Positions 5,586 to 9,766 of a DNA stretch of 64,000 bases are shown piece by piece. Positions within the stretch are counted from its first letter, which is position 1; the number at the start of each line of letters is the position of its first letter. The notes beneath the pieces are model-generated. The model was not told where the DNA came from. It did no database searches and saw nothing but the letters and a program-made list of their open reading frames with translations. The translations under genes and the position numbers were made by a program. This stretch comes from Burkholderiales bacterium PBB1 (lineage in GTDB: Bacteria > Pseudomonadota > Gammaproteobacteria > Burkholderiales > Burkholderiaceae_C), in NCBI GenBank assembly GCA_002255905.1, contig NKIN01000002.1, forward strand, positions 434,001 through 498,000. The letters run 5' to 3'.

Positions 5586-6635
5586 GTGACATCACTCTCT
5601 CGCTATTGGTTCGCAGTGGTCCTTTCGATGACCGTGGCTTTCGCCGCGCCTCAACCGGTGCGTGCTGAAAGCGATGCGACACCCGCCCCTGTGGTTCGCG
5701 CGCCAGCCAAAAAGAGTCAGCTTGCTCCTCGAGCCAAAGCGCGCAGTGCAACCCGAGCTACTCGGGTATCGGTTCAGCTGAACAGCGCACCTTCTCGCGG
5801 TGCGAAACGCCGGGTGGCGGCCAAGGTGGTTCCCGCGCAGCCTTCGATGGGCGAACTGGCTGGGTTGCGAGCGACTCCCGACAAGTTGGACCTGAAATCG
5901 AGCGTCGCCCTGGTGGTGGATCAGGACACCGATGAAGTTCTGTTCAGCAAGAATTCTCAAGCGGTGTTGCCGATCGCGTCGATCACCAAACTGATGACTG
6001 CCGTGGTGGTCACAGACGCCGCGCTGCCTCTGGACGAGGTGCTGACTGTCACGCAGGACGACGTCGATACCGAAAAGGGCAGCCGTTCGCGGCTCAATGT
6101 CGGCACCCAGCTGACACGCGAGGAAATGCTGCATCTGGCATTGATGTCCTCGGAGAATCGCGCAGCGCACGCACTCGGTCGCAACTACCCAGGCGGTTTG
6201 TCGGCCTTTGTGTCGGCGATGAACGCCAAAGCCCAGCTACTGGGCATGGCCGACACCCGCTATGTCGAGCCAACGGGCTTGTCGAGCCAAAACCAATCCA
6301 GCGCCCGTGATCTGGCAACCTTGGTCAAGCTGGCACACACCCATCCATTGATCCGCGAGCTGTCCACTTCTCCTGAGTATCAGGTAGACGTCGGTCACCG
6401 GCAGCTGCAGTTCCACAACACCAACGGGCTAGTCAGCAACCCAAGCTGGGAAATTGGATTGCAGAAAACTGGTTACATCGCCGAGGCAGGTCGCTGCCTG
6501 GTCATGCAGGCCAGCATGGCGGGCCGCAAGTTGATCATGGTATTTCTTGATTCCAGCGGCCGGTACACCCGGCTGGCTGACGCCGAGCGAGTACGGAAGT
6601 GGATCAACACCAAGTTCCCGAAAGCTGCGTCCTGA
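5586..6635 (+). CDS. pbpG: D-alanyl-D-alanine endopeptidase / penicillin-binding protein (PBP7-like)
   Basis: Periplasmic low-molecular-mass penicillin-binding protein (S11 peptidase) that trims or cleaves peptidoglycan cross-links. All three active-site motifs are visible: SITK at 132-135, SEN at 189-191 and KTG at 294-296. A signal peptide ends near residue 27 (...PVRA-ES), followed by a basic, Ala/Arg-rich linker (residues 28-95) before the catalytic domain. The start is GTG. No C-terminal amphipathic anchor or extra domain is present, which favours the PbpG/PBP7 endopeptidase type over DacA-type carboxypeptidases. It ends 3 bases before the stop of the convergent ATP-grasp gene. Confidence 0.9.
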   Translation: MTSLSRYWFAVVLSMTVAFAAPQPVRAESDATPAPVVRAPAKKSQLAPRAKARSATRATRVSVQLNSAPSRGAKRRVAAKVVPAQPSMGELAGLRATPDKLDLKSSVALVVDQDTDEVLFSKNSQAVLPIASITKLMTAVVVTDAALPLDEVLTVTQDDVDTEKGSRSRLNVGTQLTREEMLHLALMSSENRAAHALGRNYPGGLSAFVSAMNAKAQLLGMADTRYVEPTGLSSQNQSSARDLATLVKLAHTHPLIRELSTSPEYQVDVGHRQLQFHNTNGLVSNPSWEIGLQKTGYIAEAGRCLVMQASMAGRKLIMVFLDSSGRYTRLADAERVRKWINTKFPKAAS

Positions 6636-6638
6636 CGC

Positions 6639-7616
6639 TCAGAACCTTCGGGGTCTGTGCCCTAGTACGAACCGCTTCTTGAAGTACTTCGGGACGCGCA
6701 GCGGCAGTCGCGAGACCGGCTGAGTCACGTCCGCTAGCGCAGACGCCAGGCGCGACCTGACCAGCCTCATGGTCTCGCTGCGGATCGCATTGCGATGTGC
6801 CAGAGTGAGCGACATCGTCGGGTTGGTGTTGATTTCGTAGGCCTGCGGACGCCCGCAGACGATGCCGAAATCCAGCCGACCGAATTGCAGCCCTGCGAGT
6901 TCGAACACCTTCATCACGTAATCGTGGTGTGGGTAGGTGTCCATCTCCGCACGCTCGGCCAGATACTGCTCGGCAGACGCCAGCCCCTCCGTGCCGTTCT
7001 TCGCCACCCAGCCCGCGTCGTTGACCGTGTTGGCGCGGATGATGTGCGGACCGACGCGAAACGCCGCATGCTTTTGGAAGCTGCCGGTATCGGGTTGTGG
7101 CTCGGCGGCATACTCGACGAAGATCAGGTCACGCAGCAGATATCCATGGTCGATGGCCTGCAGCAGAGCCGTATCTGCAGCGACCTGATCGTGCAATAAA
7201 TCGCTGAGGGTTCCACGGTGCGCGGCGATGGTGCGCAGAAACACTGGATACCGCTGCGGGCGTTCACCCGCGCTCGGCAGATAACAAGTGAAGCCGTTGA
7301 GACCTTCCGCATGCAGCATCTTGAGGAAGCTGTCCCGCGGGCGATAGTGGCGCGGGTTGTTCAAGACTGGCAAACCAGCCTCTTGCAGATGGTCGTGCAA
7401 GCGCCCGGCCATCTCGTGCTCGACGGGCGAGAGCCGGTCGAAATCCGTCATCACGTAGGTGCCGCGAGGCAACAACCTGCAGCTCCAGAGTGTTTCGTAG
7501 CTCAGAACGCGACCTGTGACGCCTCGCTCCCGAAGCTGCTCGGGAAGGCCCACAAAGGTGTAGGCGTGGTCGCGGCTGCAGACGTAGATCAGGCGCCGGG
7601 TGCTGATATTGACCAT
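6639..7616 (-). CDS. ATP-grasp domain protein of unknown substrate (possible peptide-modifying ligase)
   Basis: 325 residues from ATG at 7616 (MVNISTRRL); the frame is open further upstream but that part runs into the divergent region. The C-terminal end carries GRLDFG (246-251) and YEINTNPTM (260-268), the metal-binding Glu-x-Asn end motif of ATP-grasp enzymes such as RimK- or glutathione-synthase-like ligases. YVMTDFDRLSP (54-64) resembles the end of a pre-ATP-grasp segment. No signal peptide or membrane segment. Substrate is unknown. It is divergent, 80 bases away, from a small Lys/Gly-repeat peptide and a HExxH peptide-modification protein, so an amide-forming or phosphorylating role on that peptide is possible but unproven. 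Confidence 0.75.
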   Translation of the reverse strand: MVNISTRRLIYVCSRDHAYTFVGLPEQLRERGVTGRVLSYETLWSCRLLPRGTYVMTDFDRLSPVEHEMAGRLHDHLQEAGLPVLNNPRHYRPRDSFLKMLHAEGLNGFTCYLPSAGERPQRYPVFLRTIAAHRGTLSDLLHDQVAADTALLQAIDHGYLLRDLIFVEYAAEPQPDTGSFQKHAAFRVGPHIIRANTVNDAGWVAKNGTEGLASAEQYLAERAEMDTYPHHDYVMKVFELAGLQFGRLDFGIVCGRPQAYEINTNPTMSLTLAHRNAIRSETMRLVRSRLASALADVTQPVSRLPLRVPKYFKKRFVLGHRPRRF

Positions 7617-7696
7617 TGGGGAACTTTGGTGATACGGTCGTCTCGCTGTTGTGGAAGCCCGTTTCCAATCCATCCTAGTTCATCCAAGGAACGCCA

Positions 7697-7891
7697 ATGA
7701 TCTCTGTGCCCCTCGATCCCAAGAAGTTGCTCGGCTTCAAGCTGATCACACAACTGCCTGCCGAGTCCTCAGCCGCGATCGCCGGCAAAGTGGGAACCAA
7801 AAACACCATTCGCAAAGAGGGTGTTCGACTTGGCGCCAAGGTGGGTGCCAAGGTCGGCGGCAAGGTGATCCTTCCAGCATCTCGCGCCTGA
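7697..7891 (+). CDS. Small cationic KVG-repeat protein, candidate RiPP precursor peptide
   Basis: 64 residues, ATG with a good ribosome site (AAGGA at 7686-7690, 6-base spacing). The N-terminal part (PLDPKKLLGFKLITQL, residues 5-20) looks leader-like, with a hydrophobic LLGFKLI patch. The C-terminal part is Gly/Lys/Val-rich with KVG at 31-33, 48-50 and 52-54 and Lys every fourth residue at 48, 52 and 56. I count nine Lys and three Arg against three acidic residues, and no Cys. No signal peptide of classic type. It lies directly upstream of a HExxH putative peptide hydroxylase and divergent to an ATP-grasp gene, which suggests it is their substrate. No named family recognised; function is inference. 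Confidence 0.6.
   Translation: MISVPLDPKKLLGFKLITQLPAESSAAIAGKVGTKNTIRKEGVRLGAKVGAKVGGKVILPASRA
7832..7867 (+). repeat. Three 12-base tandem units inside the small peptide gene
   Basis: GGCGCCAAGGTG, GGTGCCAAGGTC, GGCGGCAAGGTG run in tandem and encode GAKV-GAKV-GGKV (residues 46-57). The units differ mostly at third codon positions, which argues that the repeat is kept at protein level. Confidence 0.8.
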
Positions 7892-7932
7892 TCACCTTCC
7901 CGTCAGCCGTGCGAGGGTGCGCAGTACCGCTT

Positions 7933-8907
7933 ATGGAGGAGCGGCTGGCGTTTGCACCTTCCGCGGTGCGTGGGATCGCCCTTGACGCTGCAATGCATCG
8001 CGAACTGGCGTCGAGCCTGGATCACTTGATCGATGCCTGCGCCGCCGAAGCGCCGGACATCACCCGAGCGCTCGAATCGCCCCGTGCATTGCTGGCCGCG
8101 GGGCACGCCTTGCCTCCCTGCGCATTCGGTCTTTACTTTCAGTTGGCGAGTTCGCTCTTCGATGGCAATGAGCCCGCCTCTCGATGGGCCGCGGCGCAGC
8201 TTTCCGCGACTGTGCCCCGTCAGACGGGGTTGCAGATGCTAGGTTGGGGCAGCGCGCAATCTGCGGCATTGGAGACGGTGTTGGCGCTGCGGATGGGCGA
8301 TGATGTCCGTCAATTCGCGGACGTTTCGGAAGCGACTGTCCAGCAATTCGCAGCACTGGTCAAAGAAGGGCTGGCGCTCCTGCTGGCCGGAGCGCCCGAA
8401 CTGTATGGCGAGGTCACCGCGCTGCTTTCGGAGATGCTGTTCGCCCAGGCCCCACCCGGGGCCGTGTTGGAATTCGACGGTGCATCGCACTATCAGCTGT
8501 GGGGCCTGCTGCTGTTGAATCCCTCACACCATCGGACACCGCTGGCCGTTGCCGAGGTGCTGGCGCATGAGGCGGGCCACAGCCTGCTGTTCGGTCTCAC
8601 CATCGATGAACCGCTGGTGCTCAACGACGATGACGAGTTGTTCGTTTCGCCACTCCGACCTGACCCACGGCCCATGGATGGCATCTATCACGCGACCTTC
8701 GTCTCCGCCCGGATGGCCTGGACCATGGAGGCGCTGGCGGAGAGCGGTCTGTTGAGTCCCGAAGACCAGCAGCGTGCTCGCGACGAGGCCGCCAAGGACC
8801 GCATCAACTTCACGAATGGCTGGAAAACCGTGACTCAGCAAGGCCGCCTGTCGGCGACCGGTGCGCAAATCATGGAGAACGCTTACCGCTGGATGCGCCA
8901 CGGCTGA
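7933..8907 (+). CDS. HExxH-motif putative peptide-modification protein (aKG-HExxH-type peptide beta-hydroxylase family)
   Basis: 324 residues from ATG 7933; a longer in-frame extension overlaps the small peptide gene in another frame and is rejected. It contains HEAGH at residues 212-216, then SPLRPDPRP (239-247) and a further His at 253 (MDGIYHATF). HExxH, DPRP and the following His together are the pattern I know from the NCBIfam HEXXH motif-domain family (TIGR04267), proposed to hydroxylate RiPP precursor peptides. No signal peptide, so it is not an exported metalloprotease. The gene starts 41 bases after the 64-residue peptide, and its 3' end overlaps the convergent IclR gene by 38 bases. 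GTG 7909 is an alternative start. Confidence 0.75.
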   Translation: MEERLAFAPSAVRGIALDAAMHRELASSLDHLIDACAAEAPDITRALESPRALLAAGHALPPCAFGLYFQLASSLFDGNEPASRWAAAQLSATVPRQTGLQMLGWGSAQSAALETVLALRMGDDVRQFADVSEATVQQFAALVKEGLALLLAGAPELYGEVTALLSEMLFAQAPPGAVLEFDGASHYQLWGLLLLNPSHHRTPLAVAEVLAHEAGHSLLFGLTIDEPLVLNDDDELFVSPLRPDPRPMDGIYHATFVSARMAWTMEALAESGLLSPEDQQRARDEAAKDRINFTNGWKTVTQQGRLSATGAQIMENAYRWMRHG

Positions 8908-9718
8908 TGCGTCTGACATTGTTCTGCGGTGCTGCGTCCAACTGCACAGGCGTGCGCTGGTACCCCAAGGCGGCCGAGATCTGATCGGCCGTCTCGCGCA
9001 AGCGCTCCAGCCAGCGCTCCTCGAGCCGGTCTGCAGGCGCGGAGATCGACAAGCCAGCCACCAGCAGTCCCTGGTCGTCGTAGATGCCCGCGGCCATGCA
9101 GCGCACCCCCAATTCCAGCTCCTCGTCATCGCGTGCGGTGCCTCGTGCCAACACGGTCGACAGTTCTCGTTCCAGCACTGCGACCTCGGTGATGCTGTTG
9201 CGCGTATGCCCGATCAGCCCACTGCGGGTGGCATAAGAACGTACTCGTTGTGCGTCGTCCTGCGCCAGGAACAGCTTGCCCACCGAAGTCAGATGCAAGG
9301 GCGCCCGGCCACCGACAGCCCGCACCACCTGCATGCCCGAGCGCTCGCTGTAGGCGCGCTCGATGTAGACGATCTCGTCACCTTGTCGCATCGACAGATT
9401 GACCGGCTGCTGCGTCAGCCGGTGCAACTCTCGCATCGGACCGATCGCTGCCTCGCGCACATCCAGTCGCGCCTTGACCAGGTTGCCAAGCTCCAGAAGC
9501 CGCATGCCCAGGCGATAGGTCCCTGACTCCGGTCGGTCGACGAATCGACCCGCTACCAGATCGTTGAGGATGCGGTGCGCCGTAGAGGGGTGCAGCCCAG
9601 TCGTCTCACTGATCTGCTTCAACGGTACGGCGTCAGGGTGCTGCGCCAGAACATCTAGCACGGCGAAGCTGCGTGCCAGCACTTGCACGACAGGGGTGGC
9701 GTGATCAGGGCTTTTCAT
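8870..9718 (-). CDS. IclR-family transcriptional regulator
   Basis: DNA-binding regulator of about 282 residues. The N-terminal winged helix-turn-helix reads VPLKQISETTGLHPSTAHRI, followed by the wing (RFVDRPESGTYRLG) and the IclR effector-binding domain, with the usual SVGKLFLAQ and C-terminal MAAGIYDDQGLLVAGLSISAP. ATG 9718 (MKSPDHATPVVQVLARSFAV) was chosen because it starts just before the conserved Q-V-L-x-R-x-F helix. The gene stands alone and its regulon is unknown. An inverted repeat just upstream (9736-9766) may be its own operator. Its last 38 bases are antisense to the end of the HExxH gene. Confidence 0.92.
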   Translation of the reverse strand: MKSPDHATPVVQVLARSFAVLDVLAQHPDAVPLKQISETTGLHPSTAHRILNDLVAGRFVDRPESGTYRLGMRLLELGNLVKARLDVREAAIGPMRELHRLTQQPVNLSMRQGDEIVYIERAYSERSGMQVVRAVGGRAPLHLTSVGKLFLAQDDAQRVRSYATRSGLIGHTRNSITEVAVLERELSTVLARGTARDDEELELGVRCMAAGIYDDQGLLVAGLSISAPADRLEERWLERLRETADQISAALGYQRTPVQLDAAPQNNVRRISRGASSGKRSP

Positions 9719-9735
9719 CCCGCGCATTCTCCCTG

Positions 9736-9766
9736 CATTCCGGAGCACTTTTTGTATGACGGAATG
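9736..9766. promoter_or_regulatory. Inverted repeat upstream of the iclR-type gene, candidate autoregulatory operator
   Basis: CATTCCG (9736-9742) and CGGAATG (9760-9766) form a perfect 7-base inverted repeat with a 17-base AT-richer spacer, 18 bases before the regulator's start. Its location and palindromic form suit a dimeric IclR-type repressor; binding is not shown by sequence alone. Confidence 0.4.

Follow-up and report, generated by a model that had tools for sequence, protein, structure and literature searches.

Do three neighbouring genes in a Burkholderiales genome form one peptide-modifying pathway, and what would its enzymes do to the peptide? The genes lie in a 64,000-nucleotide stretch of Burkholderiales bacterium PBB1 (contig NKIN01000002.1, positions 434,001 to 498,000 of the forward strand), which as a whole is called the window here. 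They encode a 64-residue peptide, a HExxH protein of the alpha-ketoglutarate (alpha-KG) HExxH family (the hydroxylase below) and, divergently, an ATP-grasp-like protein (the ligase). An earlier note on this DNA proposed that the three neighbours are an undescribed locus for a ribosomally synthesized and post-translationally modified peptide (RiPP). This proposal is borne out by the recurrence of the trio and the architecture of its precursor; the gene pairing is well supported, and the chemistry and the shared pathway are what we infer. The cassette is real and recurrent, is apparently an undescribed RiPP type, and consists of one known enzyme family, one unnamed ATP-grasp-like family and one new precursor family. 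In the favoured reading, which has a probability of about 0.62, the HExxH protein would hydroxylate residues within GxKxGxK units of the peptide and the ligase would add an amide or ester, with lysine as its leading but tentative site.

Selection, recurrence and loss of the cassette

The 64-residue peptide encoded at 7697-7891 is a gene under selection. It is conserved with few non-synonymous changes in five further loci (L005-L009), all from metagenome-assembled genomes (three named 'Burkholderiales bacterium', one Rubrivivax sp. and one Rhizobacter sp.), and all five carry the three genes in the same layout, with the ligase of L008 running off its contig end. Over the six close loci, the ratio of non-synonymous to synonymous substitution rates (dN/dS) is 0.087 for peptide residues 2-16, counted without the start Met, and 0.44 for the remainder of the peptide; the ligase and the hydroxylase give 0.13 and 0.16, respectively. 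The ribosome site that the earlier note assigned to the peptide is present as well (AAGGAA, 7686-7691).

How far does the trio extend? Across genome draws that overlap in part, it is widespread yet rare. The peptide is matched at E <=0.001 in 3 of 299 genomes of the window's family, all of the window's genus. Among 369 genomes of the class, the ligase profile (A1) and the hydroxylase profile (A2) each find seven, and six contain both genes, adjacent in every case; in one of these six, G639, the HExxH protein is remote and a precursor was not seen. The seventh match of the ligase profile, G554, was rejected as a family member, being a D-Ala-D-Ala ligase by Pfam. The hydroxylase profile is also matched in 9 of 398 genomes of the phylum draw (E 1e-10) and in 10 of 248 genomes of the family f223 (E 1e-20). 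The earlier note had staked its proposal on co-occurrence in other genomes, and the trio does recur, in the class as well as in another family of the phylum.

Altogether 29 HExxH loci were examined (L003 lies inside L007 and L004 inside L006, each counted once). A ligase-family member adjoins the hydroxylase in 18 of them, with a precursor in all but L031; counting L033, which has a remote HExxH protein and no visible precursor, brings the number to 19. Furthermore, ligase and hydroxylase distances are correlated, with r 0.88 over 17 loci (reached in none of 5000 permutations) and r 0.68 over 12 loci (reached in 4 of 5000), in a test that omits L006 and the second ligase of L066.

A genome of the window's genus, G103, shows a natural loss of the cassette in which the three genes decayed jointly. 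At about 4505-5340 of L097 (G103:C8), between the same endopeptidase and regulator genes that flank the window's trio, the ligase is fragmented and two short hydroxylase remnants are left. The peptide is unmatched both at this site and in the whole genome, which was searched for peptide and ligase, the hydroxylase search covering the 10 kb around the site.

The window hydroxylase is 44-52% identical to those of the f223 loci compared and 30-35% identical to those of four other class loci compared; this closeness to f223 suggests transfer. A plasmid search returned two remote relatives of the hydroxylase, one in Pantoea adjoining a major facilitator superfamily transporter and one in a Photobacterium record without annotation, and none with the L046 hydroxylase as query. 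For the ligase, it returned a single relative, from a Deinococcus plasmid whose displayed stretch has no annotated HExxH protein.

Leader and core of the precursor peptides

The upstream peptide carries a strict LDxxKLLGF-type pattern in 18 of the 29 HExxH loci and a looser form in four (L027, L029, L047 and L072). Over 406,557 bases (30 loci, six frames), the strict pattern has 22 matches, all on the same strand as a HExxH gene and no more than about 1 kb upstream of it. In L008, this distance is counted from the start given by alignment, as the mechanical frame opens further upstream. Twenty shuffles gave a mean of 0.25 and a maximum of 2. The expression was composed with the peptides already known and is narrower than the motif itself, so that the four looser leaders and the sixth precursor of L066 fail it, and loose screen frames in L048 and L073 were not accepted as leaders. 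Nine loci (L065-L073) were retrieved by the hydroxylase profile alone, with the leader already seen; seven of them have it, L072 has the looser form and L073 has none.

Behind the conserved front lies a variable, lysine-rich tail. Counted over 25 of 28 precursors, with three of the six in L066 omitted, K.G occurs 69 times against 21.6 expected by shuffling, and G.K 79 times against 21.7. Of the 69 K.G pairs, 46 have G at -2 and 47 have K at +4, which gives a GxKxGxK unit. Clear repeats include three LGAKIGKAP in L030, LLG(A/D)K(T/I)GSKV in L069 and GLKMGGK in L046. Asp and Glu are not conserved across the cores: the one precursor seen in L027 has none, that of L032 has one, in the leader, and the core of L070 has up to seven. 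In L066 (G1095:C8), the hydroxylase is preceded by six precursors in tandem that share a leader type but differ in core, and two adjoining ligase frames lie on the opposite strand. A constant front, a variable repeat tail and tandem copies are typical RiPP precursor logic, and these loci show a hallmark of a RiPP locus: a ribosomal precursor beside a modifying-enzyme gene, with a conserved front and a variable tail. All listed precursors are shorter than 80 residues and those scanned match no family, so such loci are easily missed.

The two enzymes and their possible chemistry

The hydroxylase belongs to a known family. In its 324-residue form it matches TIGR04267 (alpha-KG-HExxH-type peptide beta-hydroxylase) at 103.3 bits (E 1.4e-29; curated cut-off 40), and its HExxH and SPxRxDxRPxxGxxHA residues match those of ChlH. 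The HEAGH, SPLRPDPRP and His pattern is present as the earlier note described it. In the PDB, a subfamily profile of 10 rows picks out ChlH (8s5f; E 3.5e-10), with the HExxH and SPxRxDxRP...H block aligned; it also finds 22nu, a chain labelled radical SAM protein, at E 1.2e-5, and the weaker PDB matches appear unrelated. Residues S247-R250, D252, R254, P255, G258 and H261 (332-residue numbering) are invariant in all 11 aligned members.

The ligase matches no family in Pfam and NCBIfam at E up to 1, libraries expected to include graspetide ligase models. Its GRLDFG/EINTNP end, on which the earlier note relied, is present and kept in 12 of 12 aligned members as GRxDxG...EINTNP. We take this block to be an ATP-grasp end motif, and the ATP-grasp label of the protein comes from it. 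Homology to D-Ala-D-Ala ligases is weak and confined to the C-terminal block, with E 0.025 for a PDB profile and, in an hhalign comparison with the G554 D-Ala-D-Ala ligase, E 1.8e-5 and probability 78.

In three loci, another ligase takes the place of this one. A cyanophycin-synthetase-like ATP-grasp protein, well under that family's cut-off, replaces it in L034 and L071, and a relative of that protein, split over two frames, does so in L030; the window ligase is not detectably like this protein (hhalign E 0.53). All three loci carry the strict leader upstream of the hydroxylase. AMP-binding enzymes stand alongside the remoter HExxH proteins of L048, L049, L072 and L073, and the AMP-binding protein of L048 also has carrier-protein and thioesterase domains. 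In L051 (G962), a methyltransferase, an ATP-grasp_4 protein and a remote HExxH protein stand in line.

What might the enzymes do together? In the proposed mechanism, peptide 7697-7891 would be the precursor, with residues 1-16 (including PLDPKKLLGFKL) as a leader recognised by the HExxH enzyme and the tail of GxKxGxK units as the modified core. Since the leader tracks the hydroxylase regardless of the ligase type, the hydroxylase most likely uses it as a handle. The HExxH protein would be an Fe(II)/alpha-KG oxygenase hydroxylating one residue per unit, presumably at the beta carbon, like its characterised relatives; as Lys is constant in GxKxGxK, Lys or its neighbour is the likely target. That this enzyme acts on the 64-residue peptide is highly probable, and that it hydroxylates inside the GxK units is somewhat better than an even bet.

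After or before hydroxylation, the ATP-grasp-like protein would use ATP to build an amide or ester bond on that peptide, and action on this substrate is likely. The favoured step is not ring closure but acylation of the amines on Lys side chains by a small acid or amino acid, because Lys is constant and carboxylates are not, and the L027 and L032 precursors imply that the ligase cannot generally make side-chain rings. Alternatively, the C-terminal carboxylate could be its substrate. Lysine as the site of ligase action is a tentative assignment, and the acylation step is the weakest part of the favoured reading.

Several observations weigh against this scheme. A recognised leader peptide is absent from 7 of the 29 HExxH loci (L031, at a contig end, L033, L048, L049, L050, L051 and L073), and L068 has leader peptide and hydroxylase with no such ligase in its 11 kb. 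The ligase family is not dedicated to the cassette: the 10 kb read at 5 of its 13 matches in the 248 f223 genomes lacks such a HExxH protein, as does the stretch read at the second copies in G437 (L028) and G202 (L096). The correlation of ligase and hydroxylase distances may come partly from species history. Structure models built from six-row alignments (the window and L005-L009) are poor, the ligase at a predicted local distance difference test (pLDDT) score of 34 with no fold obtained and the hydroxylase at pLDDT 57, where the best fold match, of low quality, is again 8s5f (E 9.2e-4, template modelling score 0.41). In addition, the comparison of neighbouring genes described below chose frames by length, and antisense frames displaced true genes, such as the hydroxylases and ligases of L066 and L069.

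Could the ligase close rings instead? An ATP-grasp-like protein adjoining a Lys-repeat precursor and an oxygenase gene would suit a graspetide pathway, in which Lys-Asp/Glu (or Ser/Thr) rings are closed and the HExxH protein hydroxylates nearby. The available part of the report on corallotide describes such a pair, a graspetide synthetase and a Lys delta-hydroxylase acting on five repeats (PMC13097080), and rings would be possible in the other cores that hold Asp/Glu, as in L070. However, acceptor carboxylates are absent beside this ligase family in L027 and from the core of L032, the GAKIGKAP repeats of L030 hold no Asp/Glu, and the ligase matches no NCBIfam or Pfam model, so that this reading is improbable. 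Graspetide membership of the cassette was rejected, the acceptor not being conserved.

A similarly improbable reading keeps precursor and hydroxylase in one pathway and makes the ligase a mere neighbour with another substrate, as would fit the ligase-family members found away from HExxH genes and the lack of a ligase in L068. Set against this are the ligases beside 18 of the 29 hydroxylases, nearly always with a precursor, the other ATP-grasp ligase in three loci that lack this one, and the joint decay in G103. Of the members away from HExxH genes (L091-L095), those of L093 and L094 have a methyltransferase-domain protein nearby, and in L091 a protein that Pfam leaves unnamed resembles it by eye.

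It is quite unlikely that the HExxH protein cleaves leader or core as a peptidase, leaving modification of the peptide to the ligase. No other recurring peptidase gene was found beside the cassettes, and PflC hydrolyses a substrate lacking its leader (PMC12636437, in part available). In the same source, this hydrolysis occurred on truncated substrate but not on the full-length peptide under anaerobic conditions, and profile and motif place the window protein among the alpha-KG-HExxH oxygenases. Finally, a chance arrangement, in which the peptide would be a spurious frame or some small protein of unrelated role, could appeal to its shortness and to the lack of family matches, but it deserves almost no credence and was rejected, contradicted by conservation, selection and co-localisation.

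The cassette is best read as hydroxylation plus an ATP-driven ligation. A bolder extension, which we regard as rather unlikely, is a new RiPP class with LDxxKLLGF leaders, GxKxGxK cores and a HExxH oxygenase joined to an exchangeable ATP-dependent ligase (small ATP-grasp-like, cyanophycin-synthetase-like ATP-grasp or perhaps acyl-AMP ligase), whose lysines would become hydroxylated, acylated or amino-acylated in a templated, cyanophycin-like decoration of side chains on a ribosomal peptide. The cassette supplies a searchable leader and core grammar and a system of three genes compact enough to express as a unit. Should the ligase decorate lysines, it would open a new way to conjugate peptides at their side chains, and a protein family that Pfam and NCBIfam do not name would gain a substrate.

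Locus layout and relation to known systems

In the window, the ligase gene lies on the minus strand and the peptide and HExxH genes follow each other on the plus strand (Table 1). By profile matches, the trio is flanked by a D-alanyl-D-alanine endopeptidase gene (5586-6635, plus strand) and an IclR-type regulator gene (8870-9748, minus strand).

Table 1. Coordinates of the cassette features in the window
Feature	Position	Strand	Evidence
ATP-grasp-like ligase, 325 aa	6639..7616	-	start and sequence common to L005-L009, 74-80% identity
GRLDFG...YEINTNP block of ligase	6819..6881	-	G246, R247, D249, E261, N263-P266 invariant in 12/12 aligned members
Divergent intergenic stretch	7617..7696	.	contains invariant 14-nt block TTTGGTGATACGGT at 7625-7638
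AAGGAA ribosome-binding site of peptide	7686..7691	+	AAGGAA also ahead of the peptide start in five close relatives
Putative precursor peptide gene, 64 aa	7697..7891	+	homologues at same position in L005-L009; dN/dS 0.32 overall
Leader-like front of peptide, MISVPLDPKKLLGFKL	7697..7744	+	PLDPKK.LGFKL invariant in 6/6 close loci; LDxxKLLGF type in distant loci
Core unit GKVGTK (partial GxKxGxK) of peptide	7784..7801	+	core repeat analysis
Core repeat LGAKVGAKVGGK of peptide	7829..7864	+	K48, G50, K52, G54, K56 invariant in 6/6 close loci; GxKxGxK across distant loci
Alpha-KG-HExxH peptide hydroxylase family protein	7909..8907	+	332 aa from GTG 7909, or 324 aa from ATG 7933
HEAGH metal-binding motif of hydroxylase	8566..8580	+	H, E, H invariant in 11/11 aligned members; aligned with HE..H of ChlH
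SPLRPDPRPMDGIYH block of hydroxylase, including further conserved His	8647..8691	+	aligned with SPWREDLRPPSGLLHA of ChlH

Two start sites differ from those of the earlier note. The ATP-grasp-like protein most likely begins at 7616 (MVN...) rather than 7673, because L005-L009 align from 7616 and L005 and L006 have no longer frame. The HExxH gene does lie directly downstream of the peptide, but the gap is probably 17 nt to GTG 7909, not 41 to ATG 7933, since the translation from 7909 matches the N-termini of its relatives. The 14-nt block at 7625-7638, unchanged across the window and the five close relatives, is possibly an operator or promoter element; a pattern scan of the intergenic stretch gave no sigma-70-like site, and scans for promoter and terminator patterns and defence-system models gave no match.

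The earlier note saw no adjacent transporter or peptidase. The gene at 5586-6635 does score as a D-Ala-D-Ala endopeptidase; it is a cell-wall gene of murein type that also adjoins the broken cassette site in G103. Across 19 loci compared, no peptidase or exporter was found to recur directly beside the cassettes, though unlinked genes for either may exist; the product may stay inside the cell, as the earlier note suggested. Other recurrent neighbours in these loci were conserved synteny among near relatives, some weak or antisense pairs and one protein found in both L072 and L073. A generic ABC-transporter ATPase pair lies 4-7 kb off in L030 and L065, and a signal peptidase gene adjoins the hydroxylase in L067 only.

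How does the cassette compare with what is known? Open-access full-text literature, searched partly through the best-ranked matches, yielded no description of such a cassette, and the pairing of a HExxH oxygenase with an ATP-grasp-like ligase was not reported in the literature found. According to the accessible parts of PMC12636437 and PMC13060819, alpha-KG-HExxH relatives (TIGR04267/IPR026337) such as ChlBH, BipH/BpmH, PflC/PosC and PesO act on RiPP precursors, with reported targets Asp and His (ChlBH), Gln (PflC/PosC) and Pro (PesO). The window enzyme has the same family and motif as these relatives. The partners in those systems are radical SAM, MNIO, acetyltransferase, arginase and asparagine-synthetase-like proteins, and the portions available of PMC12636437, PMC12707348, PMC12452194 and PMC13060819 name no ATP-grasp ligase. 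The LDxxKLLGF leader and GxKxGxK core also set the cassette apart from these systems.

Corallotide is alike in combining an ATP-grasp ligase with an Fe(II)/2-oxoglutarate (2OG) oxygenase and repeated Lys units in the precursor, but its oxygenase is called a divergent 2OG-Fe(II) enzyme, with no HExxH in the available text (PMC13097080). From graspetides in general, the cassette differs in its ligase, which lacks an NCBIfam or Pfam match, and in acceptor Asp/Glu that are not conserved. With D-Ala-D-Ala ligases, the window ligase has a weakly matching C-terminal block in common. Where L034 and L071 employ cyanophycin-synthetase-like ligases and L030 a relative of them, the window employs a short ligase of an unnamed family instead.

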